From assembly GCA_949127775.1 (NCBI GenBank), contig CASBQF010000094.1, forward strand, positions 80,198-123,923: a stretch of DNA of 43,726 bases. The letters are read 5' to 3'. Positions within the stretch are counted from its first letter, which is position 1. Every line of letters starts with the position of its first letter. The position numbers and the translations under genes are program-made. The stretch is from Oscillatoriales cyanobacterium PMM_0080 (GTDB lineage: Bacteria; Cyanobacteriota; Cyanobacteriia; Cyanobacteriales; Microcoleaceae). Below, piece by piece: positions 3,146-17,439 of this stretch. The notes beneath the pieces were generated by a model that was not told where the DNA came from, searched no databases, and saw only the letters and a list, made by a program, of their open reading frames with translations.

Positions 3146-3303
3146 ATATCAAATCCGGTAGGATCGAAATTAATATTACTCACAGCCACCAGGAGACGGC
3201 AGTGCCGTGTCCCTACCGTGATTAATTGTAGGGACACGGCACTGCCGTCTCCTCTATATCTGCCATCTCCTCTATATCATTCCGATAACACCGGAATTGA
3301 TAT
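3146..3303. repeat. 158-bp nested inverted-repeat element (MITE-like)
   Basis: The outer arms are ATATCAAATCCGGT (3146-3159) and ACCGGAATTGATAT (3290-3303), matching at 13 of 14 positions. Nested inside is a perfect 26-bp inverted repeat, 3191-3216 against 3228-3253, with an 11-nt loop; its core ACGGCAGTGCCGT is itself palindromic. The right end reaches the stop codon of the cupredoxin gene. The same ACGGCACTGCCGTGTCC core recurs at 41411-41473. No coding capacity. Confidence 0.8.
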
Positions 3304-3815
3304 TATCCCTGTACTTCCACCACGCCTCTAAACATATTCATGCCGCAAGTAAATAGGTATCGTCCAGGTTTTTGAGGGGTGAATTCAACAGCCGTTACCT
3401 GATTTAGAGGTAATTCTCGCACAATGTGAAAATCTGGTAACAACACTTTTTCAAGACAACTGTTGGGATCGCGCCTCAAGAAATTGAGCCTGACTAATTG
3501 ACCTGCTTTCACAACTACAGTGGCAGGCTCATAACCCCCGTCTACAGTAATAGTCAACTCTTGTATCCCCTGAATAGATTCAGCTTGCTGCCCTTTAGCT
3601 TTATTGAACAAAAACCACCACAATTCCAAACCAATTAATGTTAAACCACCTATTGTGACGCCAATTTTCAAACCTAGTGGCTGTTCAATGCTACGGAATT
3701 GAGTTTTTGAAGTAGAATGCTGGACGGACATTTCGGAAGCTTGAACTCCCGATGCCATTCCCATCACAAGTCCTAAACTCGCGAGACTTCCCCAAATTTT
3801 ACTAGGCTGTAACAT
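3303..3815 (-). CDS. membrane-anchored cupredoxin-domain protein
   Basis: A 170-residue protein with two hydrophobic segments (about 8-24, signal-like, and 48-70) and a C-terminal cupredoxin-like domain (about 83-170). Candidate copper ligands are Cys120, His130, Cys157 and Met159/Met161, the last three residues within FTCGMNMFRG. This resembles EfeO/CusF-neighbourhood cupredoxins more than plastocyanin. It is the third gene of an apparent leftward operon after the HMA chaperone and the Cu(I)-ATPase, starting 19 nt beyond the ATPase stop with a good GGAGG site. Inference: a periplasm- or thylakoid-lumen-facing copper acceptor for the ATPase. It is not plastocyanin, because length, ligand order and the membrane anchor all differ. 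Confidence 0.8.
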   Translation of the reverse strand: MLQPSKIWGSLASLGLVMGMASGVQASEMSVQHSTSKTQFRSIEQPLGLKIGVTIGGLTLIGLELWWFLFNKAKGQQAESIQGIQELTITVDGGYEPATVVVKAGQLVRLNFLRRDPNSCLEKVLLPDFHIVRELPLNQVTAVEFTPQKPGRYLFTCGMNMFRGVVEVQG

Positions 3816-3834: not shown

Positions 3835-6090
3835 TTAGGCTATAGATTTGGCTTTAAAATTCCGCAGACGTAAAGCATTAGTTACTACCGAAAGCGAACT
3901 AAAAGCCATTGCTCCCCCGGCGATAATTGGATTTAGCAGCCAGCCAAAAATTGGGTACAAAATGCCAGCGGCGATCGGTATTCCAGCGATGTTGTAAATA
4001 AAGGCAAAAAACAGATTTTCGCGGATGTTCCGCATGGTGGCGCGTGACAGTTGAATTGCTGTAACTATGCCTTGCAAATCTCCTGAAATTAAGGTAATGT
4101 CGCTGGCGGCGATCGCCACATCTGTGCCGGTACCGATCGCAATTCCCACATCTGCTAAGGCCAAAGCCGGCGCGTCGTTAATCCCGTCTCCCACCATCGC
4201 GACAATCTTGCCTTCCCTTTGCAGCGCTTGGATTTGAGCGGCTTTTTGGTCTGGTCTAACTTCGGCAAAAACGCGAGTAATGCCGACAGATTGGGCGATC
4301 GACTCCGCAGTCGCTCGATTGTCCCCAGTCAGCATCACCACCTCCAAACCGAGCTTTTGCAGTGCTTTCACCGCCTGCGCTGACGACGGTTTCAGGGCAT
4401 CAGAAATGCCCATAACTGCCTCAATTTTTCCCTCTACAGCCATCCAAACCACCGTTTTGCTCGAAACTTCCAAATCTCTCGCCCGCAGTTCCAGATAGTC
4501 AGTATCGCAGCCCATTTCCTGCATCCATCGGAGGGTTCCCAGGGCGATCGACTTTCCGCCAACAACCCCTCGCACACCGCTTCCCGCGACGGCCTCAAAA
4601 TCCCGAATATCTGTCAAATTCACCTCTTGAGATTTAGCGTATCTCACCACAGCTTCCCCGACAGGATGCTCCGAATTTCGTTCTACAGAAGCTGCCAATT
4701 CCAGCAACTTTAACTCATTGCTATCCGCCGTTCCTTTAACAGTCACAAAATCAGTTACAGTCGGCTTCCCTTCCGTGAGAGTCCCAGTTTTATCTAACAC
4801 AATAACTTGAATTTTTTGCGCTAATTCTAAACTATCGGCTCCTTTAATTAAAATCCCGTTTTCCGCACCTTTACCAGTTCCCACCATCACAGCAGTCGGA
4901 GTCGCCAAACCCAAAGCACAGGGACAGGCAATAATTAACACTTCCACCATTGTCACCGTTGCCAAAGTAGTGTTACCAGTCGCGTTAAACCAGATTACAA
5001 AAGTAGCTAAAGCGATGGCAATTACTACCGGAACAAACCAGCCCGTTACTTGGTCTGCTAACTTTTGAATCGGTGCTTTTGACCCCTGTGCCTCCTGTAC
5101 CATCTTGACAATTTGAGCTAAAAATGTATCTTTGCCAACCCTGGTAGCGCGAAACTTGAAGCTGCCAGTTTTGTTGATTGTCGCTCCGATAACTTCGTCG
5201 CCAAGCTGCTTTTTAGCGGGCAAACTTTCGCCCGTAACCATTGCTTCGTCAACCGTCGAAGAGCCTTCAATTACCTCTCCGTCAACGGGGATTTGCTCGC
5301 CCGGGCGCACCTGCACGATGTCGCCAATTTCCACTTGGGCGATCGGCATTTCTAACTCTTCGCCGTTGCGAATTATCCGAGCAGTTTTTGCTTGCAAACC
5401 CATGAGTTTGCGAATCGCTTCCGAAGTCTCTCCCTTCGCGCGATTTTCGAGGTTTTTCCCCAACAAAATTAAGGCGACAACGCTAGCAGCAACTTCGTAG
5501 TAAACGCTGGGAGTCAAGCCTTGGGAAGTGAAGAAACCGGGAAAAAATGTCACAAATACCGAATAAAAGTAAGCAGCACTCGTACCCAAAGCAATCAGGG
5601 TATCCATTGTCGCGACGCGCCGTTTAAAGGATTTCCAAGCGCCCACATAAAACGATTTGCCACACCAAAATTGTACAGGTGATGTCAGGACTAATTGCAG
5701 CCAATAATTGTGCAGCCATGCGGGGATGAATGGTAGGTGCAAGCCGGTCATCGCTGGAATACCACCCACAAGGAGCAGAATGCTGATGCTGCCTGCGATC
5801 CAGAGTTTTCGCTGCAATTTTTTAGATGCGGATTTGCGATCGGCTTTTTCTGCATCATCTTCCTCCGCCGCCATTTCTTGCAGCGGCAAAGCTTCGTATC
5901 CCGCCGCATCAACAGCCGATTGAATTGTTGCTAAGTTGGTTTGCTTCGAGTCATATTTGATGCTTGCTTGTTCCATTCCAAAATTGACACGGCATTCAAT
6001 TACGCCGGGAACAGATTTGATTGCTTGTTCGACAGACGAAGCACAGGATGCACAACTCATTCCCCGCAATTTAAGTGTAAGATTGTCCAT
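3835..6090 (-). CDS. copA: Cu(I)-translocating P1B-type ATPase
   Basis: A 751-residue copper pump using ATP to move Cu(I) out of the cytosol. Order of parts: one N-terminal HMA domain with GMSCASC (Cys13, Cys16); membrane helices at about 94-112, 125-145, 164-184 and 196-212; actuator TGES (286-289); CPC metal site (389-391); phosphorylation motif DKTGT (Asp433); HP motif (475-476); GDGIND (634-639). The last two helices carry YN (699-700) and MxxSS (728-732), the Cu(I)-specific signature of the P1B-1 class. An AGGAGGG site precedes the ATG. It lies between a copper chaperone (58 nt upstream) and a cupredoxin. Cyanobacteria have two such pumps, CtaA (import) and PacS (thylakoid); which one this is cannot be decided here, and the context favours resistance or trafficking. 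Confidence 0.93.
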
Positions 6091-6122: not shown

Positions 6123-6150
6123 AACTGTCAATTGTCAATTGTCAACTGTC
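6123..6150. repeat. heptamer tandem repeat (STRR), CAGTTGA family
   Basis: Four 7-bp units, AACTGTC or AATTGTC, which on the other strand are GACAGTT/GACAATT, the same family as the arrays at 19639-19666 and 27468-27517. It overlaps the stop codon of the chaperone gene and fills the gap before the ATPase gene. Confidence 0.85.
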
Positions 6151-6343
6151 AACTGGCATGATAGCCAGCAGATGCGATCGCATTCCTAACTTCACTTTCC
6201 GGCTTAGCTGTTTGGATTGTGACCAATTTTGTCTTCAGATCCGCCTCAACAGTGGCTGCTGAGTCAATGGATTGGACTGCTTTTGTTATGGTATTCGCAC
6301 AAGCAGAACAAGCCATCTTAGGAACTTTTAGCTGTAAAGTCAT
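6149..6343 (-). CDS. HMA-domain copper chaperone (Atx1/CopZ-like)
   Basis: A 64-residue single HMA domain that would carry Cu(I) in the cytosol to the ATPase encoded next. It contains the MACSAC metal loop (MxCxxC) near the N-terminus, and the rest fits the beta-alpha-beta-beta-alpha-beta pattern, ending AIASAGYHAS. I place the start at the ATG ending at 6343 because a GAGG site sits about 8 nt before it and the metal loop then falls at the normal distance; an in-frame start 11 codons upstream would add a tail unlike the family. It is the first gene of the chaperone-ATPase-cupredoxin operon, behind a MerR-type promoter. Confidence 0.88.
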   Translation of the reverse strand: MTLQLKVPKMACSACANTITKAVQSIDSAATVEADLKTKLVTIQTAKPESEVRNAIASAGYHAS

Positions 6344-6429: not shown

Positions 6430-6457
6430 TTTTAGATTTTAGATTTTAGATTTTAAA
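6430..6457. repeat. heptamer tandem repeat (TTTTAGA)
   Basis: Three TTTTAGA units plus one TTTTAAA, lying exactly between the leftward MerR-type promoter and the rightward CopR-type box. It may be only a spacer, but copy-number changes would alter the distance between the two regulatory sites. Confidence 0.8.
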
Positions 6458-6458
6458 T

Positions 6459-6495
6459 TTCATCCTTATTTCATTTCTATGTGACAATGTAAATA
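6459..6495 (+). promoter_or_regulatory. CopR-type box 1 and -10 element, copM promoter
   Basis: Direct repeat TTCAT (6459-6463), 6 nt, TTCAT (6470-6474), an 11-bp period typical of OmpR/PhoB regulators. Fifteen nt later is the -10-like TAAATA (6490-6495). The same arrangement recurs at 7829 and 13939. The Synechocystis CopR site is, to my recollection, TTCAT-N4-7-TTCAT, so the cognate regulator is probably the CopR-like protein at 14655. Confidence 0.75.
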
Positions 6496-6524
6496 TAAGC
6501 GAACAATTTAACTATCTAAAATCT

Positions 6525-7247
6525 ATGAAACTCGTTTCATTAAAAACAGGTTTGACAGCGTTGATATTGACCTGTGCAACCGCCCTAACCAGCGGAATGC
6601 TTGCAGCCTGTTCAAAAGCTCCTACAAGCCAAACTCAAGCACCAAATATTACCGCCGCAACTGAAACAAATAACAAGCAAGACGTGGCACAAGGCGGTAT
6701 GGGTGGCATGGGTGGCATGGGTGGCATGAATCATAATATGTCAATGGATTTAGGCCCTGCTGATGCCGACTACGATTTGCGATTTATTGATGGCATGACA
6801 GTACACCATCAAGGTGCTGTCAACATGGCGAAAGAGGTGCTGAACAAATCCAAACGCCCGGAAATGAAAAAACTAGCAAATAACATTATTGCCGCTCAAA
6901 ACCGCGAAATCAATCAAATGAAACAGTGGCGAAAAAACTGGTACGCCAAAGCCGACAATACACCGATGGCTTATCATGCTCAAATGGGTCATATGATGGC
7001 AATGACTCCCGAACAAATGCAAAGCATGATGATGAGCATGGATTTAGGCGTTGCTGACGACCAATTTGACTTGCGCTTTCTGAATGCGATGATTCCCCAC
7101 CACGAAGGAGCTTTAGTGATGGCTGAAGATGCTTTGAAAAAGTCAAAACGGCCGGAAATGAAGAAATTATCTGAAGAGATTCTGACTTCGCAAAAGCAAG
7201 AAATTCAGCAAATGAAAGACTGGCGCAAAGCTTGGTACAAACAGTAG
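6525..7247 (+). CDS. copM: CopM-like Met-rich DUF305 lipoprotein, periplasmic copper binder
   Basis: A 240-residue exported protein with a signal peptide and a lipobox LAAC (Cys29), a short linker, a GGM repeat run (about 57-68) followed by MNHNMSM, and two DUF305 four-helix domains (about 84-140 and 182-238). Each domain has the pattern DLRF...M..HH.GA..MA and ends in a QMK.WRK.WY block. Met and His clusters (for example QMGHMMAM and MQSMMMSM) suit Cu(I) and Cu(II) binding. In Synechocystis CopM is a DUF305 protein secreted with the CopRS system. The gene here stands alone behind a CopR-type box, so copper induction is expected. No clear Shine-Dalgarno site. A decayed copy lies at 7351-7486. 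Confidence 0.82.
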   Translation: MKLVSLKTGLTALILTCATALTSGMLAACSKAPTSQTQAPNITAATETNNKQDVAQGGMGGMGGMGGMNHNMSMDLGPADADYDLRFIDGMTVHHQGAVNMAKEVLNKSKRPEMKKLANNIIAAQNREINQMKQWRKNWYAKADNTPMAYHAQMGHMMAMTPEQMQSMMMSMDLGVADDQFDLRFLNAMIPHHEGALVMAEDALKKSKRPEMKKLSEEILTSQKQEIQQMKDWRKAWYKQ

Positions 7248-7281
7248 TGACGGGCTGGATTAATTAATCGCAATATCTATA

Positions 7282-7337
7282 GGGGCGGGTTCACCGAAAT
7301 ATTAATCGTAAGTCAAAAAGCCCAGTAAACCCGCCCC
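7282..7337. repeat. paired inverted repeat, family 2 (GGGGCGGGTT)
   Basis: Perfect 10-bp arms GGGGCGGGTT (7282-7291) and AACCCGCCCC (7328-7337) around a 36-nt spacer, downstream of copM. A related pair is at 17525-17582 and a lone half at 34668-34678. Could fold as a hairpin after copM, but there is no T-run. Confidence 0.75.
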
Positions 7338-7350
7338 GGTATTAGTTCCA

Positions 7351-7486
7351 CAAACAAGACGTGACACAAATCTACATAATGAGTGATGTGAATCACAGTG
7401 TGTGCATTATTCAGGAAATATTTGCTTCACAAGAGCCAGAAATAGATTAAATAAAAAAGTGGCATAAAGTGTTGTACAAACAGTAA
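7351..7486 (+). pseudogene. decayed, internally deleted copy of the copM-like DUF305 gene
   Basis: The frame reads KQDVTQ, then VNHS, then QEIFASQEPEID, stop, IKKWHKVLYKQ, stop. Compare KQDVAQ, MNHN and EEILTSQKQEIQQMKDWRKAWYKQ in copM. Over the last 75 nt the two DNAs align without gaps at about 52 identities. The in-frame TAA at 7448-7450 replaces a Gln codon (CAA in copM). The matching start, both DUF305 cores and most of the Met-rich part are gone. The order and phase of the remaining pieces are kept, so this is a tandem duplicate in decay and not a chance match. Confidence 0.75.
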
Positions 7487-7537
7487 TTTAGCTCGATTAC
7501 GGCTATCAGTAGTTGTCTGAATTCAGATCATTTCATG

Positions 7538-7583
7538 TTTTACGTAAAAATACTGTAGACAATTTAGAAGCAGTCGCTATAAA
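7538..7583 (+). promoter_or_regulatory. candidate promoter with 12-bp palindrome
   Basis: A perfect palindrome TTTTACGTAAAA (7538-7549) is followed by a -35-like TAGACA (7556-7561) and a -10-like TATAAA (7578-7583), 16 nt apart and 40 nt before the ATG of the 65-residue gene. Sequence-based guess only; the palindrome could be an operator. Confidence 0.4.
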
Positions 7584-7622
7584 GTATGGAAGTCACCACA
7601 AAACTTTATACAGGGGTATTCT

Positions 7623-7820
7623 ATGATCTCGAACAGCTTTAAATTAAATACAACTTATCAATCAAATGCAGTCGTAGAGGGGCTAGTGAGCGCATTGATC
7701 AACGAAACTGAAGCCCAAGAAAAAATAGCAAAACAGGAAAAAAATCTCAAGCGCCATCCCTTGGCATTAGATCACACTTATATTCGTATTTTAGAAGCCG
7801 GAGGGCATCTAGGTTGCTGA
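7623..7820 (+). CDS. small hypothetical protein in the copper island
   Basis: A 65-residue protein I do not recognise. No signal peptide or membrane segment; the middle is charged and probably helical (ETEAQEKIAKQEKNLKRH), and the tail ends GGHLGC, a His and a terminal Cys that could bind metal. An AGGGG site sits about 6 nt before the ATG and a promoter-like pair lies upstream, so it looks like a real gene. It lies between copM and the RND operon, with the CopR-type box of the RND operon starting 9 nt after its stop. No function is proposed beyond the context. Confidence 0.5.
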   Translation: MISNSFKLNTTYQSNAVVEGLVSALINETEAQEKIAKQEKNLKRHPLALDHTYIRILEAGGHLGC

Positions 7821-7828
7821 GGCGAAAT

Positions 7829-7865
7829 TTCATCCTAATTTCATTTGTCAGTGAAAGACTAGGTT
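7829..7865 (+). promoter_or_regulatory. CopR-type box 2 and -10 element, RND operon promoter
   Basis: TTCAT (7829-7833), 6 nt, TTCAT (7840-7844), then 15 nt to a weaker -10-like TAGGTT (7860-7865). The flanking AAA before the first repeat and the T after the second are shared with the boxes at 6459 and 13939. A leader of roughly 140 nt separates it from the adaptor gene. Confidence 0.72.
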
Positions 7866-8010
7866 GAGGAGATAAATTTTAGCTCTTTGTCATTGCTTAG
7901 CAGTCGCTTCTTGGAAAATGCTAATAAGTAGCTCCGGTTAATTCGGTTAACTTACCTTTGGCAGAATACCAACCGTTAAGCATTTGGCACTCAACCTAAT
8001 TTTAAGGACA

Positions 8011-9960
8011 ATGCCAACGATGATATTTCATAAATATTCTCAATCTCCCACAATTATTAGCAGTTGTTCCGGGTTTCTTTTCAGCCTAATTTTGCTAACT
8101 TATCCTACCGCCGTTTTAGCTCATGCGGGACATGGAAATGAATTTCATCAAAGTGGCGAAACAAGTCAAACTCCGGCGGCTATTTCTGTCGATGCCGAAA
8201 CAGCAAAACGGTTAGGGATTAAAGTCTCCCCTGCCGCCCGACAGCGATTAGATATTGGCATCAAAACCACAGGACAAATTGAAACTTTACCCAACCAAAA
8301 GGTAGAAGTTACTGCTCCGGTGGCTGGCAAAGTGGTAGAGTTATTAGTTAAGCCTGGGGACAAGGTATCAAAAGGTCAATCGGTTGCTGTTTTGTCTAGT
8401 TCAGAGTTAGGACAATTGCGGGTTGAATCTCTCTCGAAACAAGCGGAAGCTGAGGCAGATTTGCAGCAAGCTCAAGGTGATTTGAAGCTAGCTACCGAAA
8501 ATTACGATCGCCAACTGCAAATATCAGCAGCAGAAATTGTACAAGCCAAAACTCAACTGACAGCAGTAACGAAGCAGTACCAACGAGAGCAAGAATTAGT
8601 CAATCAGCGCTCTGTTGTGAAAGTTGCTAAGGAAAATTATCAACGTCAGATTCAAATAGCTACTGCCGAAATTTCCGAGACAAAAATCGCACTGACAGTC
8701 GCTCAAGAACAGTTTGACAAAGACAAAGAATTAGTAGAAACAGGAGCTATTCCCCGCCGCACAATGCTGGAATCGCAAGCAAAACTAGCAGCCGCCAAAG
8801 CCGCCTTTGCGAAGGCAAAAAGCCGTCCCGAAGTTATCAAAGCCGAAACCGAAATTAAACAAGCCGAAGTAAACCTCCCCATGCGGGAATTGCGCGATTC
8901 CCAAGGCAAAGTAGGAGATGCAAAAGCTCAACTCACTAAAGCTCTGAGCCGCCGGGAAGTGCTGGAAGCCGAGAATCAAGTCAAACGCGGCAAAACTGCC
9001 GTGCAAGTCGCTCGATCGCGCATTCGGTTAGCTGGTGCAGCCTATCAAGCGCGCCTGCAACAATTAGGGGCTGTTGCAAATGAGCAGGGACTTGTCACCG
9101 TAATTGCTCCGATTTCTGGCACGGTAGCCGATCGCGCCATCACCCCAGGAGAGTCTGTAAACGCTGAAAAACCGTTGATGAGCCTCTTAAATGACAACCG
9201 CGTTTTTGCCACCGCCAATATCTACGAAAAAGACCTGAATCAGGTAAAACAGAGCCAGGAAGTGAGGGTGAAAGTTGCTAATTGGGGCGATCGCATTTTC
9301 AAAGCAAAAATCACCTTAATTGGCTCATCCGTGCAAGGAGAAACGCGAGTTGTGCCCGTGAAAGCAGAAGTAGATAATAGTAACGGCGAGTTAAAGCCGG
9401 GACTGTTTGCTGAGTTGGAAATTTTAACCGACAAAAATGTTACTAATGTTTTAGCAATTCCGACTACAGCAGTAGTGGATGTTAGCGGTAAAAAGACCGT
9501 TTACGTGCAGAATGGTGATGCTTATCAAGCGGTTGATATTGAAGTCGGTCAAACTGCCGGGGATTTAGTTGAAGTTAAGAGCGGTTTATTCGATGGAGAT
9601 TTGATCGTAACACAGCGCGCACCTCAACTTTATACACAATCTTTGCGGGGCGGTAGCAAGCCATCAACCAGCGAGGCAAAGACAGAGGCAACTCCCAAAG
9701 TAACAGAGGTTAACTTTAATAATTTACCCATACCTTTGTGGGCGGGAATTGGGGGAGGAATGGCGATCGCATCCCTAACTTTCACAGCCGGGGTATTGTG
9801 GGGAAATCGGCGCAAATTGCCAGCAATACCAGCATCTCAAAGTCCTGCCAACAATGGTTTTGCCACCTCTGAACCCATGTTGCGCGATGAATTTGTACAA
9901 AATGACAACCATCACGTTAAAAATGAAGATGGGGAAATTAAGATAGTCAATATTCAATAA
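8011..9960 (+). CDS. RND efflux periplasmic adaptor (CusB/CzcB-like; CopB of Synechocystis type)
   Basis: A 649-residue membrane-fusion protein linking an RND pump to an outer-membrane channel. It has an N-terminal signal/anchor, a His-containing AHAGHG stretch at the mature end, a first lipoyl half (KVEVTAPVAGKVVELLVKPGD), a very long helical hairpin (about 140-350), a second lipoyl half (VTVIAPISGTVADRAITPGE) and beta-barrel and membrane-proximal domains ending near residue 545. An unusual extra membrane segment (about 574-600) follows, then a polar tail. Hairpin arms contain internal duplications. The ATG at 8011 (after AAGGACA) is preferred to an upstream TTG at 7984; ATG 8020 is also possible. 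It is the first gene of the CopR-box operon adaptor-permease-lipoprotein, like copBAC in Synechocystis. Confidence 0.87.
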   Translation: MPTMIFHKYSQSPTIISSCSGFLFSLILLTYPTAVLAHAGHGNEFHQSGETSQTPAAISVDAETAKRLGIKVSPAARQRLDIGIKTTGQIETLPNQKVEVTAPVAGKVVELLVKPGDKVSKGQSVAVLSSSELGQLRVESLSKQAEAEADLQQAQGDLKLATENYDRQLQISAAEIVQAKTQLTAVTKQYQREQELVNQRSVVKVAKENYQRQIQIATAEISETKIALTVAQEQFDKDKELVETGAIPRRTMLESQAKLAAAKAAFAKAKSRPEVIKAETEIKQAEVNLPMRELRDSQGKVGDAKAQLTKALSRREVLEAENQVKRGKTAVQVARSRIRLAGAAYQARLQQLGAVANEQGLVTVIAPISGTVADRAITPGESVNAEKPLMSLLNDNRVFATANIYEKDLNQVKQSQEVRVKVANWGDRIFKAKITLIGSSVQGETRVVPVKAEVDNSNGELKPGLFAELEILTDKNVTNVLAIPTTAVVDVSGKKTVYVQNGDAYQAVDIEVGQTAGDLVEVKSGLFDGDLIVTQRAPQLYTQSLRGGSKPSTSEAKTEATPKVTEVNFNNLPIPLWAGIGGGMAIASLTFTAGVLWGNRRKLPAIPASQSPANNGFATSEPMLRDEFVQNDNHHVKNEDGEIKIVNIQ

Positions 9961-10016
9961 CAAATAACAAATAACAAATAACAAATAACAAATAACAAAT
10001 AACAAATAACAAATAA
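9961..10016. repeat. eight exact heptamer repeats (CAAATAA) between adaptor and permease genes
   Basis: Eight perfect tandem copies of CAAATAA fill the whole gap from the adaptor stop to one base before the permease ATG. There is no Shine-Dalgarno sequence in the gap, so the array is the entire ribosome-loading region. Perfect identity of the units implies recent or ongoing slippage. Confidence 0.95.
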
Positions 10017-10017
10017 A

Positions 10018-13000
10018 ATGTTCAGCACAATTCTGAGATGGGTAATTAATCGCCGCTGGCTAGTCGTTCTTGCCACCATTATTATTAGTCTTTGGACATT
10101 ATATATCATCCCCAAAATGTCCCTGGATGTCTTCCCACCTTTTGCGCCGCCACAGGTGGAAATTCAGACAGAAGCACCGGGTTTAGCACCGGAAGAAATC
10201 GAGTCTTTGGTAACATTACCGATCGAAAGTGCGATCAATGGAACTCCGGGAGTGACAGCAGTGCGATCGTCTTCGGCTGTCGGCCTTTCTGCCATTAAGG
10301 TAATCTTTGATTGGGGAACTGAAATATATCAAGCGCGCCAGTTAATAACCGAACGATTGCAGCAAGCTCAAAGCAAACTCCCCACAGGCGTAGAAACACC
10401 ACAAATTTCTCCGACAACTTCTCCGGTTGGTTTGGTAATTACCTATGCTTTTACGTCAGAAACTACTCCACTGATGGAAGTGCGCCGTTTGGTTGATTGG
10501 CAAGTTACAAATCGCCTTTTAGCAGTGAATGGTGTTGCTCAAGTGGTGGCTTACGGTGGCGAACAAAGGCAGTATCAAGTATTAGTAGAGCCTGCCAAAT
10601 TGAAAGCTTTTAATGTGTCGTTGCAGCAAGTTGCGGAAGCGACGAAGGCTGCGAATGTTAACGCGCCCGGTGGCTATTTAATTACACCGGATAAAGAAAC
10701 TTTGATTCGGGGTGTGGGGCGGATTGAGTCTGTGGCAGATTTGCAGCAATCTGCGATCGCCACTCGTCAAGGAACACCCGTCAGAATTGGTGATGTAGCG
10801 GATGTTAAAATTGGTGCTGCGATCAAGCGGGGAAACGGCAGTTTTAATGGCAAAAAAGCTGTGATTGTGATGGTAAACAGACAGCCGGTTGCGGATACTC
10901 CGGCGGTAACGAAGGCGGTTGAGAAGGCTATGGCTGAGGTGCAGCAAGCTTTGCCGAAAGATATTAAAGTTACTGTCACTTTTCGGCAGGAAGAATATAT
11001 CAATTCTTCGGTGGAAAATGTGCGATCGGCTTTAGTGGAAGGTAGCATCATTGTCACCATTATCCTCATCCCGTTTTTGATGAATTGGCGCACTCTGACG
11101 GTGGTTTTGCTCGATTTCTTCCTAACTTGGCTTTTCGGGCTGCTGGCGATGTATTGGCTGGGGCTGGGATTGAATACGATGACCTTGGGTGGGTTGTCGG
11201 TGGCGATCGGCACTGCGATCGACGATGCGATCGTCTATGCCGAAAATACCTACCGCAATTTACGAGAAAATACGGCTTCTGGGCATCCGCGCCCGGTGAT
11301 GGATGTGATTTTTGATGGCAGTCAAGAGGTGCGCGATTCGTTGATTGGAGCGACGGTAATTGGGATTGTGGTGTTTTCGCCGATTTTTACTTTACCAGGT
11401 GTTGAAGGTCGAATTTTTACGCCGATGGGAATTACTTATTTGGTAGTTGTGGTGATTTCTAGTCTAGAATCACTGTTCGTTTCTCCGGCGCTTTGTGCTA
11501 TTTTGTTGCCGAGCAAACGCATGAGTGCTGAGGAACCTTGGTTGCCGAGATTTTGCAAAAAAATATATCACTTTTTTATTGAGTTATCAATGCGCTATTC
11601 GGCGATAATTTTAGTTTTAGCTACTGCTAGTATGGTGGCTACATTAGTTATCTTGCCTTCCTTTGGACGGGTATTTTTGCCGGAGTTTCAGGAGCAAACT
11701 TTGGTGAATACGATTCAGCTTTATCCGGGTGTGTCTTTGGAGACGACGGATAGCGCTGCTTTTGCGATCGAAGATGCACTCAAGAATGATACCAGGTTTG
11801 AATACGTGCAAGTGCGATCGGGCAGAGCTCCGGGTGATGCTGATGCTGCGGGTGTCAATTTGGCTCACATCGATATCGGTTTGAGTGAGGAAGGGATGAA
11901 AAATCGGTCAAAAACTTTGGAGTCTTTGCGGCAGGAATTTGCGAAATTGCCGGGAGTTGCACCAAATATCGGCGGCTTTATTTCTCACCGGATGGATGAG
12001 GTTTTGTCCGGTGTCAGAAGTCAAATTGCTGTCAAAATCTTTGGCCCGGATTTGAATCAACTTCGCAGCCTCGGTGCTCAAGTTGAAACGCAAATGAAAA
12101 CAGTCAAGGGAATTGTGGATTTGCAACTCGAACCGCAGGTACCAGTGCCACAAATTCAAATTAAGTTTAACCGCCAAGCTGCGGGTAGATATGGTTTGAA
12201 AATTGGAGAACTTTCGGAAATCATTGAAACAGCTTTAAATGGAAAAGTTGTATCACAAGTTTTGGAAGTACAGCAAACTTTTGATTTAGTTGTTTGGTTA
12301 AAGCCGGAAGCTCGAAATAACTTAGAAACTATTCAGAATTTGTTGGTTGATACCCCCAACGGCAATAAAATCCCCCTGGCGCAAGTTGCGACTGTTACAT
12401 ATGGTACTGGCCCAAATACGATTAATCGTGAGAATGTTTCACGGTTGATTGTGGCGGCGGCTAATGCAAAAGGTCGAGATTTGCGATCGGTTGTGAATGA
12501 AATTCAAGCTAAAGTCAAACGAGAGGTGCAGTTGCCTTTTGGCTATTTTATCCAGTACGGCGGTCAATTTGAGGCGGAACAAAGGGCTTCGCAGAATATT
12601 ATGGTGTTTAGTGCGATCGCCTTTTTGGTCATTACCGTCTTGATGTACTTGTCCGTCAAGTCGATCGCCTCAACTGCGATGATTATGATTAATTTGCCCC
12701 TCGGCTTAGTTGGAGGAGTAATTGCTGTAGCCTTGACTGGCGGTATAATTTCTGTAGCTTCCCTGGTTGGCTTTGTCACATTATTCGGCGTAGCTACCCG
12801 CAACGGCTTGCTGTTAGTAGACAACTATAACTCTAAATTTGCCGAAGGAATGCCCTTGAAAGAAGCCGTTGTTAAAGGCTCGATGGAACGGCTCAACGCC
12901 ATCCTGATGACTGCTTTAACTTCAGCCTTGGGTTTAGCACCTTTAGTCTTAGAAGGCGGCCCAGGGAAAGAAATATTGCAACCTTTGTCGATCGTAGTTT

Positions 13001-13137
13001 TAGGAGGATTATTTACTTCTACGGCCTTAACTTTGTTAGTTTTGCCAGCCTTGTATGCTCAATTTGGGAGATTTTTCAGACCTCAAGAACCTCAGCCTAT
13101 TGTTAAAGACCAAAAAACTGGTTTAACTACTTTTTAG
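10018..13137 (+). CDS. heavy-metal efflux RND permease (CzcA/CusA family)
   Basis: A 1039-residue inner-membrane proton/metal antiporter of the HME-RND family, the pump of the tripartite system. It starts with the family's N-terminal helix (WVINRRWLVVLATIIISLWTLYIIP) and the DVFPPFAPPQVEIQTEAPGLAPEE porter start. It has two blocks of membrane helices (about 335-540 and 865-1025), and helix 4 carries AIGTAIDDAIVYAEN with the acidic pair used for proton relay. Length is normal. The CusA methionine triad for Cu(I) is not obvious at the aligned places (see findings), so the substrate rests on context: a CopR-type box, CopM and CopRS neighbours. Synechocystis calls the counterpart CopA, a name that clashes with the P-type ATPase. 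Confidence 0.92.
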   Translation: MFSTILRWVINRRWLVVLATIIISLWTLYIIPKMSLDVFPPFAPPQVEIQTEAPGLAPEEIESLVTLPIESAINGTPGVTAVRSSSAVGLSAIKVIFDWGTEIYQARQLITERLQQAQSKLPTGVETPQISPTTSPVGLVITYAFTSETTPLMEVRRLVDWQVTNRLLAVNGVAQVVAYGGEQRQYQVLVEPAKLKAFNVSLQQVAEATKAANVNAPGGYLITPDKETLIRGVGRIESVADLQQSAIATRQGTPVRIGDVADVKIGAAIKRGNGSFNGKKAVIVMVNRQPVADTPAVTKAVEKAMAEVQQALPKDIKVTVTFRQEEYINSSVENVRSALVEGSIIVTIILIPFLMNWRTLTVVLLDFFLTWLFGLLAMYWLGLGLNTMTLGGLSVAIGTAIDDAIVYAENTYRNLRENTASGHPRPVMDVIFDGSQEVRDSLIGATVIGIVVFSPIFTLPGVEGRIFTPMGITYLVVVVISSLESLFVSPALCAILLPSKRMSAEEPWLPRFCKKIYHFFIELSMRYSAIILVLATASMVATLVILPSFGRVFLPEFQEQTLVNTIQLYPGVSLETTDSAAFAIEDALKNDTRFEYVQVRSGRAPGDADAAGVNLAHIDIGLSEEGMKNRSKTLESLRQEFAKLPGVAPNIGGFISHRMDEVLSGVRSQIAVKIFGPDLNQLRSLGAQVETQMKTVKGIVDLQLEPQVPVPQIQIKFNRQAAGRYGLKIGELSEIIETALNGKVVSQVLEVQQTFDLVVWLKPEARNNLETIQNLLVDTPNGNKIPLAQVATVTYGTGPNTINRENVSRLIVAAANAKGRDLRSVVNEIQAKVKREVQLPFGYFIQYGGQFEAEQRASQNIMVFSAIAFLVITVLMYLSVKSIASTAMIMINLPLGLVGGVIAVALTGGIISVASLVGFVTLFGVATRNGLLLVDNYNSKFAEGMPLKEAVVKGSMERLNAILMTALTSALGLAPLVLEGGPGKEILQPLSIVVLGGLFTSTALTLLVLPALYAQFGRFFRPQEPQPIVKDQKTGLTTF

Positions 13138-13239
13138 TAATGATTCTGGCTATTGCCGAATAATTTTTGATAATTTTCCTTGACGCGCTGTTTTAAAATG
13201 CCATAATTTACAAATAATTGTCTGCAAATACTAAAGCAC

Positions 13240-13728
13240 ATGAAAACGATCAAATCAAGTTTAATTATTCTCAGCAGTGTCGGATTGCTATTTTTGGGAG
13301 CTTGCGGTAAAGGCGACGAAGCAAGCGATTCAAAAATCACTCCCACACCCCCTCCTGCTGCTTCAAAACCTGCTGCGTCTTCCGCTCCCGCAGCGGCTTC
13401 TGCTGGCACAAAAGGAGCTAAAGGAGGTCAAGTTGTCAATGCTGGTGCTTACCATTTAGAGTTTGTACCTGAAAAAGAAGCTACTGGAACTCACTTAGAC
13501 TTGTATCTGCAAAAAGGCGATAAAAAAGAAACAGTTGCTGATGCAAAAGTGTCCGCACAGGTGCAGTTACCGAATGGAAAGCAGCAAACCCTAGCTTTTA
13601 AATATGATCCAGCAGATAAACATTATACTGCTGTGTTTCCAGTCAAGGGTGCGGGTAGCTATCCTGTGAAGGTGAATGCGGATATTAAGGGAGAAAAAGT
13701 TGACGGACGTTTTACATTTACTCAGTAG
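13240..13728 (+). CDS. small lipoprotein of the RND operon (CopC-position protein)
   Basis: A 162-residue lipoprotein: hydrophobic signal, lipobox LGAC (Cys22), a low-complexity Pro/Ala/Ser linker (about 34-60) and a beta-rich domain beginning GGQVVNAGAYHLEFVPE and ending VDGRFTFTQ. It resembles the small exported proteins that follow czcA-type genes in cyanobacteria. Its place matches Synechocystis copC (third gene of copBAC), although I judge this from position and not from sequence. It lies 102 nt after the permease stop on the same strand. His in the domain (YHLEF, THLDL, KHYTA) may serve metal binding. Molecular function unknown. Confidence 0.72.
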   Translation: MKTIKSSLIILSSVGLLFLGACGKGDEASDSKITPTPPPAASKPAASSAPAAASAGTKGAKGGQVVNAGAYHLEFVPEKEATGTHLDLYLQKGDKKETVADAKVSAQVQLPNGKQQTLAFKYDPADKHYTAVFPVKGAGSYPVKVNADIKGEKVDGRFTFTQ

Positions 13729-13809
13729 TTTGAGTTAAACTTAGTTGTGGATGCCCGGTTGATTTTGGCGATCGGGTTTTTGTGTAGATGACTTACGCAT
13801 ACTAATCTC

Positions 13810-13876
13810 AGAAACCGGGTTTCTTGCGTGATTTATCGTTACTAAACGTAAGATTTTCGTAGAAACCCGGTTTCTC
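13810..13876. repeat. paired palindromic repeat, family 1
   Basis: AGAAACCGGGTTTCTT (13810-13825) and AGAAACCCGGTTTCT (13861-13875), a third copy of the paired unit seen at 1793 and 2581. It sits between the stop of the RND operon and the CopR-type box of the DUF2808 gene, again in a 3' position to the preceding gene. The spacer sequence differs from the other two, so only the palindromes are conserved. Confidence 0.8.
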
Positions 13877-13938
13877 GCCACCCATGCGTAAATCCTGTTA
13901 AGTTAGAATTGAATGATTAACTTTTAACTAGCTAAAAT

Positions 13939-13975
13939 TTCATCGCTATTTCATTCCTGACAGCAATACTAATAA
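13939..13975 (+). promoter_or_regulatory. CopR-type box 3 and -10 element, DUF2808 promoter
   Basis: TTCAT (13939-13943), 6 nt, TTCAT (13950-13954), 15 nt, TAATAA (13970-13975). This is the third copy with identical internal geometry. It lies about 40 nt before the DUF2808 start and could also drive the downstream two-component genes, giving autoregulation. Confidence 0.74.
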
Positions 13976-14015: not shown

Positions 14016-14486
14016 ATGAAAAAGTTAATTTACGCTGCTGCATTTACCTTCCTGCTAGCATCTAATGCCCCCGCTACCATTGCCGGAGGAGCCATGCAGA
14101 ATGCTAATGTCCCCCACCTTGTTGGTAGCACTGCAACTCCTAACAGAGCTGGTTTTCAGGGTGCTACCCATCGTTTTGATGTTCATGTTCAGGGCAGATA
14201 TCTTGCAGAAATTGCGATCGCCCTTCCAGCAGATTTGAGCATCCGTGGAGGAATCGAGGTCAAAAATCAATCCAATCAGAAAATAGCAACTCAAGTTACT
14301 GTCAATAAACAGAAAGCCACGGTAGTTTTTGCTCAACCAGTCGCTGCTGACACCACAATCTCAATTTATATGCGCGGCATTCAGACTCACGGTTATAGCC
14401 GTAACTGGGGGTATGCGATATCTGGTAAAATGGTGGGGATAAACGCAGAGGTTCCCCTCGGTAGAGTTGCGATTCAAACTTACTAA
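14016..14486 (+). CDS. secreted DUF2808-like protein
   Basis: A 156-residue exported protein with a clean signal peptide (KKLIYAAAFTFLLASNAPATIAGG). The mature part is predicted all-beta, ending with a strand-rich ATVVFAQPVAADTTISIYMRG block and a terminal GRVAIQTY that resemble the C-terminal half of the cyanobacterial DUF2808 family. No function is known for that family. The ATG at 14016 is chosen, since the alternative TTG at 13998 would put six polar residues before a typical signal sequence; AGGGA lies 9 nt upstream. A CopR-type box directly precedes it, so it is probably a copper-induced envelope protein, and it sits immediately before the CopR-like gene. Confidence 0.68.
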   Translation: MKKLIYAAAFTFLLASNAPATIAGGAMQNANVPHLVGSTATPNRAGFQGATHRFDVHVQGRYLAEIAIALPADLSIRGGIEVKNQSNQKIATQVTVNKQKATVVFAQPVAADTTISIYMRGIQTHGYSRNWGYAISGKMVGINAEVPLGRVAIQTY

Positions 14487-14654: not shown

Positions 14655-15344
14655 ATGAGAATTTTGCTAGTTGAAGATGAGCCGGATTTGGGAAAGGCGA
14701 TCGATCGCACTTTGAAGCAAGAAAAGTACATAGTTGACTGGGCCCAGAATGGGAATGAAGCTTGGGAATATCTAGACAGTCATTGGACTGAATACACCCT
14801 AGCCATTTTTGACTGGTTGCTTCCGGGATTGTCGGGAATAGAATTGCTGCGAAGATTGCGCGCTAAACATGGCTTTCTGCCAGTTTTGATGCTGACAGCC
14901 AAGGATAGGATGGAAGATAAAGTGGCGGGATTGGATGCGGGGGCTGATGATTATTTGGTCAAACCCTTCGGGATGGCGGAACTATTAGCAAGGTTGCGGG
15001 CGTTGCAAAGGCGATCGCCCCAAATTCAACCGCAACAGCTACAAATCGGCAATCTCGCTTTAGATTGCGGGAATCGCACGGCTTTTCATCTCAATCCAAA
15101 CGGCACAAACCAAACAATTTCCCTGACAAATAAAGAGTTTCAACTATTAGAATATTTGATTAAACATCCGAATCAAATTGTCACCACAGACCAAATTCGG
15201 AATCAAATATGGGAAGCCAGTGCAGATACTTTTAGTAATGTGGTAGCGGCTCAAGTGCGATTGTTGCGGCGTAAACTTGAGTCGGTTGGTGGTGCGAATC
15301 TAATTGAAACTGTCCACGGCGTTGGATACCGGATGAGAAATTGA
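14655..15344 (+). CDS. copR: OmpR-family response regulator, CopR-like
   Basis: A 229-residue response regulator. Its receiver domain (about 1-120) has the acidic pocket VEDE (7-9), phospho-acceptor Asp53 in FDWLLPG, Thr81 and Lys103 (VKPF). Its winged-helix DNA-binding domain (about 128-229) has the family's LTNKEFQLLEYLIKHPN and VHGVGYRMRN. It is closest in style to cyanobacterial CopR/RppA/NrsR metal-responsive regulators. Its assignment as CopR rests on context: three TTCAT-N6-TTCAT boxes in front of copM, the RND operon and the gene just upstream. OmpR-type regulators bind such direct repeats with an 11-bp period. The partner kinase is not adjacent: a toxin-antitoxin pair lies between them. 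Confidence 0.82.
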   Translation: MRILLVEDEPDLGKAIDRTLKQEKYIVDWAQNGNEAWEYLDSHWTEYTLAIFDWLLPGLSGIELLRRLRAKHGFLPVLMLTAKDRMEDKVAGLDAGADDYLVKPFGMAELLARLRALQRRSPQIQPQQLQIGNLALDCGNRTAFHLNPNGTNQTISLTNKEFQLLEYLIKHPNQIVTTDQIRNQIWEASADTFSNVVAAQVRLLRRKLESVGGANLIETVHGVGYRMRN

Positions 15345-15496: not shown

Positions 15497-15727
15497 ATGA
15501 AAAATTTAATCCAACAAGAGTTAGAAAAGCTCGATCTAGAACAACTCAAACAAGTATTTGAATTTATTGCTTTCCTAAAATTTCGTGCCAGATTAGTTAC
15601 TAATTTAACAGTAGACGAAACTAACTTAGCTGCACTCTACAGCGAATTTGCCGAAGAAGACAGACAACTTGCGGAACTCGGAATGAGTGAATATGCAGAA
15701 CTCCTAAAACATGAGGATTTGGTATGA
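15497..15727 (+). CDS. antitoxin of MazEF-type module
   Basis: A 76-residue acidic protein with an N-terminal helical part (LEKLDLEQLKQVFEFIAFLKFRAR), as in the cyanobacterial DUF2281-like or CopG-like partners of MazF toxins, and an acidic tail (SEFAEEDRQLAELGMSEYAELLKHEDLV) suited to toxin binding. I do not recognise the exact family; the identification rests on its 4-bp ATGA overlap with a clear MazF gene. A TATAAT lies about 30 nt before the start (near 15463), so the pair probably has its own promoter, as autoregulated modules do. Confidence 0.72.
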   Translation: MKNLIQQELEKLDLEQLKQVFEFIAFLKFRARLVTNLTVDETNLAALYSEFAEEDRQLAELGMSEYAELLKHEDLV

Positions 15728-16071
15728 CAATCAGACGGGGTGAAATCTGGATTGCAACCCTCGATCCTACCCAAGGTTCCGAACAGGCAGGTGTACGTCC
15801 CATAATTATTTTCCAGAATGATACTATTTCGAGATATACGACTACTGTTATCAGTATTCCTCTAACGACTAATCTGCGCCGCGTCTCTCTCCCTTCATCT
15901 GTTTTCATTCCCAGCGGTGAGGGAGGATTGACTCAAGATTCCGTTGCATTGTGCCATCAAATGCGAGTTTTGGATAAAACAAGATTGCGAAATAAAATTG
16001 GTGAAGTTAATCCAGAGACCTTGGTAAAATTAGAAAATAATGTATTATTTACCTTGGGATATTTACCTTAA
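15724..16071 (+). CDS. MazF/PemK family endoribonuclease toxin
   Basis: A 115-residue toxin of the MazF family, which cuts mRNA at short sequence motifs and stalls growth when the antitoxin is lost. The hallmark N-terminus RRGEIWIATLDPTQGSEQAG leads into a strand with VRPIIIFQND, followed by ISIPLTTN and ALCHQMRVLDKTRL near the active-site Arg/Thr region, all of family-typical length. It overlaps the antitoxin by 4 bp and ends 15 nt before the histidine kinase. Cleavage specificity cannot be inferred. Its place splits the two-component operon. Confidence 0.88.
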   Translation: MTIRRGEIWIATLDPTQGSEQAGVRPIIIFQNDTISRYTTTVISIPLTTNLRRVSLPSSVFIPSGEGGLTQDSVALCHQMRVLDKTRLRNKIGEVNPETLVKLENNVLFTLGYLP

Positions 16072-16086
16072 AAGAAACGACTAAAT

Positions 16087-17439
16087 GTGAATCAAAATAA
16101 ACTATTTAATCGCACTCGATCGCAATTAGCGATTTCCTACGCGGCAGTCATGGGTTTAATTTTAAGCTTGCTGGGATTTGGGGTGTATAGGGCGATCGCC
16201 CACGCGCACTGGATTGCGATCGATCGCGAACTAGAATCGGTAGCAGGGACACTCCACGATAGCCTCGAAATCAAGCTACAACAGCCCGGACGTTTGGAAC
16301 CAATCGTCAACGAACTTTTGCCAAACCTCCGCGTAATTGGAGTTAATGGCATGAAAGAACAGACTCCTCATCGCCATGTTTTAAGCGCTATTAGCGAAAG
16401 CTATTACTATATTCGTTTATTTGATGATTCAGGGAAATTGATTGCTACAGCAGGCGCTTATCCAGCCGAATTATCACCAGAATTTAACTCTAAACACTGG
16501 CAAACAATCACTGATAGCAAGGGCAATATTTATCACCAAATTTCTGTATCGCTGCACACTAGAACACAACAAGATTGGGGATATTTTCAAGTTGGGAGGA
16601 GTTTGCAAGAGTTCAATAGTTATCTCAGTACAGTGAGATTAATTTTGAAATTGGGATTGCCGACAGCATTAATTTTGGTAGGCTTTTCTAGTTGGTTGTT
16701 AGCAGGATTGGCGATGAAACCGATTTATGCTTCTTACCGACAAATTCAACAGTTTACAGCGGATGCCGCCCACGAATTACGCACTCCTTTAGCAGCATCC
16801 CAAGCAACCGTAGAATCGGCGCTGTTGATGCCACAATTGGATGAAAAAGAATCGCGGGAAATTTTGCGGACGATCGATCGCCAAAACCGACGATTGACTC
16901 AGTTAGTCACTGATTTGTTACTGTTGGCGCGGATGGACTCTCAACCGATCGCCGTTAGCGAAGCCCTCGAAGAGGATCGCCCTCAGTTGTGTTGTTTGAA
17001 TGACTTGGTGGGCGATTTGGTCGAGGAATTGGCTGCTTTGGCGATCGCCTCCGAAGTAGCGCTAACATCCGAAATCCGCGTACAGCAGCAATTGAATGTT
17101 GTCGGAGATGCCGATCGACTTTACCGTCTCGTTACTAATTTAATTGTCAACGCGATCCAATACACTCCGCCTGGCGGAAAAGTCACAGTCATCTTAGATT
17201 GCAGTCACCAAGAGGCGATAATTCAGGTACAAGATACCGGGATTGGGATGGCGGCGGCAGATTTAGGGCGCATATTCGATCGCTTTTATCGAGTCAATAG
17301 CGATCGATCGCGTCATACAGGTGGTTCGGGGCTCGGATTGGCGATCGCCCAAACCATCGCCCGCGCCCATCGCGGTAGCCTCAGTGCCCGCAGCGAATTG
17401 GGTTCGGGCAGCACCTTTTTCCTGCGGTTGCCTTTGTGA
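16087..17439 (+). CDS. copS: membrane sensor histidine kinase, CopS-like
   Basis: A 450-residue sensor kinase with membrane helices at about 14-36 and 186-208 bounding a periplasmic sensor domain of roughly 150 residues. That loop is rich in possible metal ligands (His39, His41, His57, the HRH at 95-97, His137, His150, His157, Met89). The HisKA domain has the H-box ADAAHELRTPLAAS (His229), directly after the second helix with no obvious HAMP. Then come the N-box LIVNAIQYTPP, G1 DTGIGM, an F-box DRFYR and G2 GGSGLGLAIA. The GTG start at 16087 is the only one that keeps the first helix whole. It is separated from its presumed partner regulator by the MazF module, 15 nt from the toxin stop. Copper specificity is inferred from the neighbourhood. 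Confidence 0.83.
   Translation: MNQNKLFNRTRSQLAISYAAVMGLILSLLGFGVYRAIAHAHWIAIDRELESVAGTLHDSLEIKLQQPGRLEPIVNELLPNLRVIGVNGMKEQTPHRHVLSAISESYYYIRLFDDSGKLIATAGAYPAELSPEFNSKHWQTITDSKGNIYHQISVSLHTRTQQDWGYFQVGRSLQEFNSYLSTVRLILKLGLPTALILVGFSSWLLAGLAMKPIYASYRQIQQFTADAAHELRTPLAASQATVESALLMPQLDEKESREILRTIDRQNRRLTQLVTDLLLLARMDSQPIAVSEALEEDRPQLCCLNDLVGDLVEELAALAIASEVALTSEIRVQQQLNVVGDADRLYRLVTNLIVNAIQYTPPGGKVTVILDCSHQEAIIQVQDTGIGMAAADLGRIFDRFYRVNSDRSRHTGGSGLGLAIAQTIARAHRGSLSARSELGSGSTFFLRLPL

Follow-up and report, generated by a model that had tools for sequence, protein, structure and literature searches.

We describe a putative copper regulon in the filamentous Oscillatoriales cyanobacterium PMM_0080, found in a 43,726-nt stretch of contig CASBQF010000094.1 (hereafter the window, meaning this whole stretch), where three copies of one DNA box precede a CopM-family gene, the genes of a resistance-nodulation-division (RND) exporter, and a DUF2808 gene followed by a two-component pair. 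These boxes are probably operators through which an RppA/CopR-type regulator of the OmpR family, likely the one encoded at 14655-15344, would drive copper-responsive class II promoters, a reading to which we assign a probability of about 0.8 on the strength of the box, its promoters and the genes behind it. The existence of a CopR-type regulon in this filamentous cyanobacterium appears well supported by the sequence comparisons below. An earlier, sequence-only reading of the window had proposed such a regulon; its box, copper-like targets and RppA/RppB pair hold, and a second copper cluster joins them, whereas its placement of the -10 element, its strict locality and its naming of the pair as CopRS-like need revision.

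The motif TTCAT-N6-TTCAT occurs exactly, and on the forward strand, at 6459-6474, 7829-7844 and 13939-13954, just where the sequence-only reading had located it, and nowhere else in the window. Three copies contrast with 0.17 expected, and none of 100 shuffles reached this number. Each box consists of two ATTTCAT heptamers 11 bp apart (ATTTCAT-N4-ATTTCAT). The flanking context that had been regarded as shared, AAA before TTTCAT and a T after the second repeat, is present at all three sites; among 88 related sites from the phylum-wide survey described below, only the A directly before TTTCAT is general (94%), the preceding AA being found in 50-55% and the T that follows the repeat pair in 57%.

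The related sites also locate the promoter. A -10-like hexamer starting with TA had been claimed 15 nt after the second TTCAT, and TA does start at exactly this distance in all three window sites (6490, 7860 and 13970), as it does in 54 of the 88 related ones; the full TAnnnT pattern, however, is found there in only 19 of 88, against 85 of 88 that carry the A at A-11 and the T at T-7 of a hexamer that begins 10 nt past the second repeat, and 75 of 88 that carry the TG of an extended -10. That an ordinary TAnnnT hexamer begins 15 nt after the repeat is, on these counts, very improbable. An A four bases before a T corresponds to the A-11/T-7 spacing of a -10 hexamer, and a TG just upstream marks an extended -10. 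With the initial T of TTTCAT as reference point, the 88 sites carry information past the box at T +24 (88%), G +25 (91%), A +28 (99%) and T +32 (97%), and the full TG-A-T signature stands at the conserved offset in 72 of them, compared with at most three for any other offset between 18 and 45. No other conserved element was found upstream of the -10 in these 88 sites, and no separate -35. The predicted -10 is this extended element, its hexamer starting five bases ahead of the TA hexamer. Heptamers repeated every 11 bp directly next to a conserved -10 form the class II layout of PhoB/OmpR-type activators, and the predicted box-promoter arrangement has this PhoB-like geometry.

The genes behind the boxes fit a role in metal defense (Table 1). 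On one side of box 1 is a divergent HMA-domain chaperone gene, followed by that of a copper P-type ATPase; on the other is the CopM-family gene, whose product exceeds the NCBIfam cut-off and carries two DUF305 stretches. Box 2 is followed by the RND adaptor and the CusA/CzcA-family pump, and box 3 by the DUF2808 gene, the regulator and the kinase. The family assignments (Pfam and NCBIfam) confirm that the boxes precede CopM-like, RND-adaptor and DUF2808 genes, as had been stated from the sequence.

Table 1. Boxes, predicted promoter elements and genes of the window, with the SbnA-like loci of other cyanobacteria
Feature	Position	Strand	Basis or remark
Box 1, ATTTCAT-N4-ATTTCAT	6457..6474	+	upstream of copM; matrix score 39.3
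Predicted extended -10 of box 1, TG-A-CAATGT	6482..6490	+	conserved positions in 88 related sites
Box 2	7827..7844	+	upstream of RND exporter genes; matrix score 45.1
Predicted extended -10 of box 2, TG-A-AAGACT	7852..7860	+	conserved positions in 88 related sites
Box 3	13937..13954	+	upstream of DUF2808 gene; matrix score 29.6
Predicted -10 of box 3, AG-C-AATACT (AG replaces TG)	13962..13970	+	conserved positions in 88 related sites
Cupredoxin-domain gene	3303-3815		domain match
Copper-translocating P-type ATPase (genomic context)	3835..6090	-	TIGR01511 650.6 bits, cut-off 397
HMA-domain copper chaperone-like gene, divergent from copM	6149..6343	-	Pfam HMA 51.2 bits
copM-like gene, two DUF305 stretches	6525..7247	+	Pfam DUF305; NCBIfam CopM 136.3 bits, cut-off 90
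RND periplasmic adaptor	8020..9960	+	NCBIfam RND_mfp 156.7 bits, cut-off 94.9
CusA/CzcA-family RND pump	10018..13137	+	TIGR00914 783.8 bits, above cut-off 701.45
Small predicted secreted protein behind pump	13240..13728	+	no family over cut-off
DUF2808 gene	14016..14486	+	Pfam DUF2808 28.8 bits, cut-off 25.3; longer start used
RppA-type (CopR/NrsR family) response regulator	14655..15344	+	NCBIfam RppA 399.9 bits, cut-off 250
RppB-type (CopS/NrsS family) sensor histidine kinase	16087..17439	+	NCBIfam RppB 693.6 bits, cut-off 400
Pyridoxal phosphate (PLP) enzyme + ANKH-like neighbour	L231:35319-37778; L232:4378-6825; L236:16693-19148; L068:17147-19534		

Regulator and kinase are separated by a short open reading frame (ORF; 15497-15727) and a PemK/MazF-type toxin gene (15724-16071), a toxin-antitoxin-like pair that looks like an insertion, because the nearest relative examined (L317) has no PemK match between its regulator and kinase. 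Two genes annotated as of toxin-antitoxin type also stand just upstream of the regulator gene of Synechocystis sp. PCC 6714 (L353). Two further observations concern the surroundings of the exporter genes: an ORF of about 65 codons at 7623-7820, between copM and box 2, ends just upstream of this box, and homologues of the small secreted protein behind the pump have a box of their own in two relatives (L132, L135).

Beyond the window, we scanned all 431 contigs of the assembly (6.36 Mb) with the reversed pattern as control. The longer core ATTTCATCNNNATTTCATT, shortened by two leading A after a fourth site had been seen, matches four sites exactly and 11 with two mismatches, no site having a single mismatch (control: five at up to two mismatches). 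With the promoter part added and up to three mismatches allowed, the same four sites are returned (control: one), namely the three of the window and one on contig C375. Further sites near copper genes had been anticipated, and this additional strong site does lie in a second copper cluster, together with a Csp-type four-helix gene (34.6 bits, below the cut-off of 100), a second CopM gene (104.8 bits, NCBIfam cut-off 90), a gene for a small protein resembling the HMA chaperone of the window, and a putative hybrid response regulator gene. The C375 box (box 4) lacks the TG; it faces the hybrid regulator gene and not the Csp-type and CopM genes. The regulon, which had been called local with regard to the three window boxes, is in this respect not strictly so. 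On contig C311, a loose copy of TTCAT-N6-TTCAT (L015:1501-1516) lies in front of a gene for an mntC-like metal-binding lipoprotein; we excluded it from the regulon as a likely manganese-regulator site, with ManR as a candidate regulator. This copy parallels an mntC match in Synechocystis without copper response, according to the accessible passages of PMC4182526.

The association with metal genes extends across the phylum. The core TTTCATCNNNRTTTCAT has 212 matches in 115 of 386 cyanobacterial genomes, and the reversed pattern 25 in 23. We examined 146 distinct matches, contained in 105 stretches around matches listed by the scan; they include the C375 site and not the three window sites: 88 lie within 700 nt upstream, on the same strand, of a gene from a metal reference set that we made ourselves from proteins of the window, of pSYSX from Synechocystis sp. 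PCC 6803, of Oscillatoria nigro-viridis PCC 7112 and of C375, compared with 0 of 25 control matches. A second reference set assigns 120 of 146 (27 CopM, 27 RND adaptor, 14 PLP enzyme, 10 RppA-type regulator, 8 RND pump, 8 DUF2808, 7 multicopper oxidase, 5 DUF411 and 14 others), with the control still at 0 of 25; since this set includes proteins from the matches themselves, its figure is partly circular, and 88 of 146 is the one to use. Among 14 genes, picked by eye, behind matches without a first-set gene, Pfam identified four multicopper oxidases, three DUF411 proteins, two PLP enzymes, a TPR protein and a TylF-type methyltransferase, and three remained without a family over cut-off. Moreover, in 58 of 79 named copM loci (PCC 7120 not being among them) a box scored by the matrix lies no more than 500 nt upstream of the gene, against two of 79 in the antisense control, some of the strains overlapping the training genomes of the matrix.

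The pair downstream of box 3 supplies a candidate regulator for the box. Described earlier as CopR/CopS-like, this pair is present; by family score and phylogeny, the adjacent regulator and kinase are assigned to RppA/RppB, a family containing both the copper system CopRS and the nickel system NrsRS. RefSeq labels CopR and CopS of pSYSX, whose gene identities we took from the accessible part of PMC4284471, as RppA and RppB. The window regulator shares 64% identity with the pSYSX CopR, and it reaches 181.1 bits with the proteobacterial CopR/CusR/SilR model TIGR01387, below the cut-off of 279.2. In trees of both proteins the window pair groups with PCC 7112 and its relatives as part of the RppA/RppB family, and the backbone of neither tree decides whether the pair is closer to CopRS or to NrsRS. 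Within the DNA-binding domain, the segment SNVVAAQ-RL-RRKL, taken for the recognition helix, is common to the window regulator, CopR and the regulator beside the inferred nrs cluster of PCC 6714. Because the trees leave the choice between CopRS and NrsRS open and both this putative helix and a variant box occur in the inferred nrs system, the box itself would indicate an RppA-type regulator, and copper is read from the target genes.

The same box and kind of regulator might serve another metal, nickel, cobalt or zinc, if the kinase were NrsS-like in sensing, as the inclusion of NrsRS in the family, the lack of a decision by the trees between CopRS and the inferred NrsRS of PCC 6714, and the variant box at the same spacing in the inferred PCC 6714 nrs promoter would allow. 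The targets, however, are CopM and a CusA/CzcA-family pump, neighbored by a copper-type ATPase and an HMA chaperone; the PCC 6714 region holds no box scoring at least 13; and in Anabaena copper induces copM homologues that share this layout, as reported in the available passages of PMC4335983. We regard a signal other than copper as unlikely.

The assignment to the regulator of the window can be examined through co-occurrence. A strong RppA match (best E at most 1e-103, with at most seven candidates scored per genome) and the motif occur together in 57 of 105 order-level genomes and are both absent from 30, the remainder being considered below; Fisher's test gives p of about 1e-10, a value that ignores relatedness. 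Another OmpR-family regulator could read the boxes instead: contig C232 of the same genome encodes a second protein above the RppA cut-off (269 bits), box 4 faces the gene of the hybrid regulator on C375, and ten of the order-level genomes carry the motif but no strong RppA. The window regulator nevertheless scores 399 bits, lies in the transcription unit of box 3 and is a relative of CopR, and the window kinase is the sole RppB-type match at 1e-40 in its own genome (130 of 151 candidates scored), which makes a different reader of the boxes decidedly unlikely. In two of these ten genomes (G199, G278) the box precedes a CopM gene.

Several results weigh against the regulon as proposed. In the window, TTCAT-N6-TTCAT with one mismatch is found five times, with 5.66 expected, a chance level that places the signal in the exact copies, and box 3 is both the weakest of the three by matrix score and the one without TG. 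Genome-wide, the loose motif is barely above its reversed control (21 against 15). A motif as frequent as in random DNA had been named as refuting the sequence-only reading; the loose form comes close to this frequency, the longer one with its four exact copies does not. In the phylum, 58 of the 146 examined matches have no first-set gene behind them and 26 none from the second set either, the A and T of the -10 being present in 37 of the 58; 21 of the 79 named copM loci lack a box within 500 nt, a few owing to a contig end; and on the Synechococcus elongatus PCC 7942 plasmid that carries rppA, rppB and a DUF305 gene, no box reaches a score of 13. Besides the ten order-level genomes with motif and without strong RppA, eight show the converse, RppA and no motif. 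Furthermore, sequences similar to the box at the mntC and nrs promoters of Synechocystis showed no copper response in the strains tested, according to the portions of PMC4182526 available. The loose motif's near-background frequency and the one-mismatch count would suit a chance resemblance within AT-rich intergenic DNA. This explanation is contradicted by the three exact copies, by the four genome-wide sites of the longer core and of the pattern with the promoter part, by the promoter signature of the related sites, by the boxes at copM and copB of pSYSX and by the copM-locus and phylum-wide counts (58 against two of 79; 212 against 25; 88 of 146 against 0 of 25), and its probability is close to negligible.

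Taking the boxes as operators of the RppA/CopR-type regulator, we infer the following course of events. Periplasmic copper would activate the RppB/CopS-type kinase, which would phosphorylate the regulator, most likely the one encoded in the window, and a regulator dimer would then occupy the two ATTTCAT heptamers head to tail at their 11-bp period. As the heptamers stand in the place of a -35 element, 10 nt upstream of the extended -10, the regulator may substitute for the -35 contact and recruit RNA polymerase, a class II activation like that by PhoB. Box 1 would switch on CopM and box 2 the RND exporter, while box 3 would switch on the DUF2808 gene, in the position held by copM in copMRS, and by read-through the regulator and kinase, creating positive autoregulation. 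Read-through past the toxin-antitoxin-like genes (15497-16071) is an assumption of this scheme.

A broader proposal, which we consider doubtful, takes the box as operator of a phylum-wide copper-detoxification regulon beyond copMRS/copBAC, one that in many filamentous relatives would include copper-induced synthesis and export of a small copper chelator by SbnA-like and ANKH-like proteins, with DUF2808 as a periplasmic accessory of the sensor. SbnA makes a precursor of 2,3-diaminopropionate for a siderophore. Fourteen of the 146 phylum matches precede the gene of an SbnA-like PLP enzyme of cysteine-synthase type, whose best NCBIfam match, tested on L231, is SbnA with 304.9 bits, below the cut-off of 349.95. 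Its neighbor of about 440 residues matches Pfam ANKH with 29.8 and 27.9 bits in the two cases tested (cut-off 22), and in L231, L232 and L236 the locus is divergent from rppA-rppB. The genome to which the window belongs lacks a close homologue of this enzyme (best 38% identity). If the link to SbnA is true, it would supply candidate genes for the copper ligands released by cyanobacteria, the identity of which is, to our knowledge, an open question. A sharp, testable promoter code (ATTTCATCCTNATTTCAT, 10 nt, extended -10) allows a copper regulon to be proposed from sequence, and DUF2808, DUF411 and the SbnA-like enzyme with its membrane-protein neighbor become candidates for copper defense.

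The kind of regulon is known and the strain is new, and the promoter code is sharper in detail than in the literature we found. Within open-licence PMC articles, screened by title and start of abstract, nothing appeared on the box in filamentous strains or on a connection of DUF2808 or an SbnA-like gene with copper, a weak absence. The closest known system is CopRS of Synechocystis sp. PCC 6803 with copMRS and copBAC on pSYSX, which shares with the window the box, the promoter geometry and the families CopM, RND adaptor, CusA/CzcA pump and RppA/RppB. The DNA upstream of copM is ATTTCATCCTGATTTCAT and that upstream of copB ATTTCATCTTGGTTTCAT, both with N6, as in the window; the formula given in the accessible passages of PMC4182526, TTCATN4-5TTCAT, is corrected accordingly to N6. 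Those passages also report that copM and copB are expressed only with CopRS present. The window differs from copMRS in that copM and the regulator gene lie in separate units, DUF2808 precedes the regulator, and toxin-antitoxin-like genes separate regulator from kinase.

That the Synechocystis logic extends to a filamentous strain, as the sequence-only reading had it, is supported by the same box at CopRS-dependent genes and has a precedent in Anabaena sp. PCC 7120, whose copM homologues all7633, all7594 and all4988 are copper-induced according to PMC4335983. As described there, all7633 resembles the window in layout: a metallochaperone and copper ATPase gene stands opposite, and two RND genes follow downstream. 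The available passages of PMC12282138 name Anabaena CopRS homologues and do not mention the box.

The nickel system NrsRS/nrsBACD, inferred from gene content on pSYLC of PCC 6714, also belongs to the RppA/RppB family. The promoter of its first efflux gene has, judged by eye, the variant box TTTCACCTGAATTTCAT with a -10-like hexamer at the same spacing; it differs from the cop box in an altered first repeat, likewise by eye, with no box of at least 13 by the cop matrix, and the inferred NrsRS forms a separate clade in both trees. A more distant parallel is the Pho box of Escherichia coli, where phoA has 10 nt between Pho box and -10, equal to the gap in the window. As given in the passages available of PMC4415409, the Pho box comprises two 11-nt units, each of seven conserved and four less conserved bases, which matches two heptamers at the 11-bp period of the window box. 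The heptamer, CTGTCAT, and the signal are different.

Closest to the window in sequence is plasmid pOSC7112.01 of PCC 7112, with a regulator 90.8% and a CopM 82.1% identical to those of the window and with boxes before CopM, RND, Csp-type and DUF2808 genes. It differs in being plasmid-borne and in carrying two DUF2808-rppA-rppB units, with 13 boxes scoring at least 13 in the two stretches read. One unit stands behind RND and cation-diffusion genes and the other behind three DUF2808 genes (L068:36947-39663 and L069:2806-6870), an arrangement that suggests two metal circuits with near-identical boxes.

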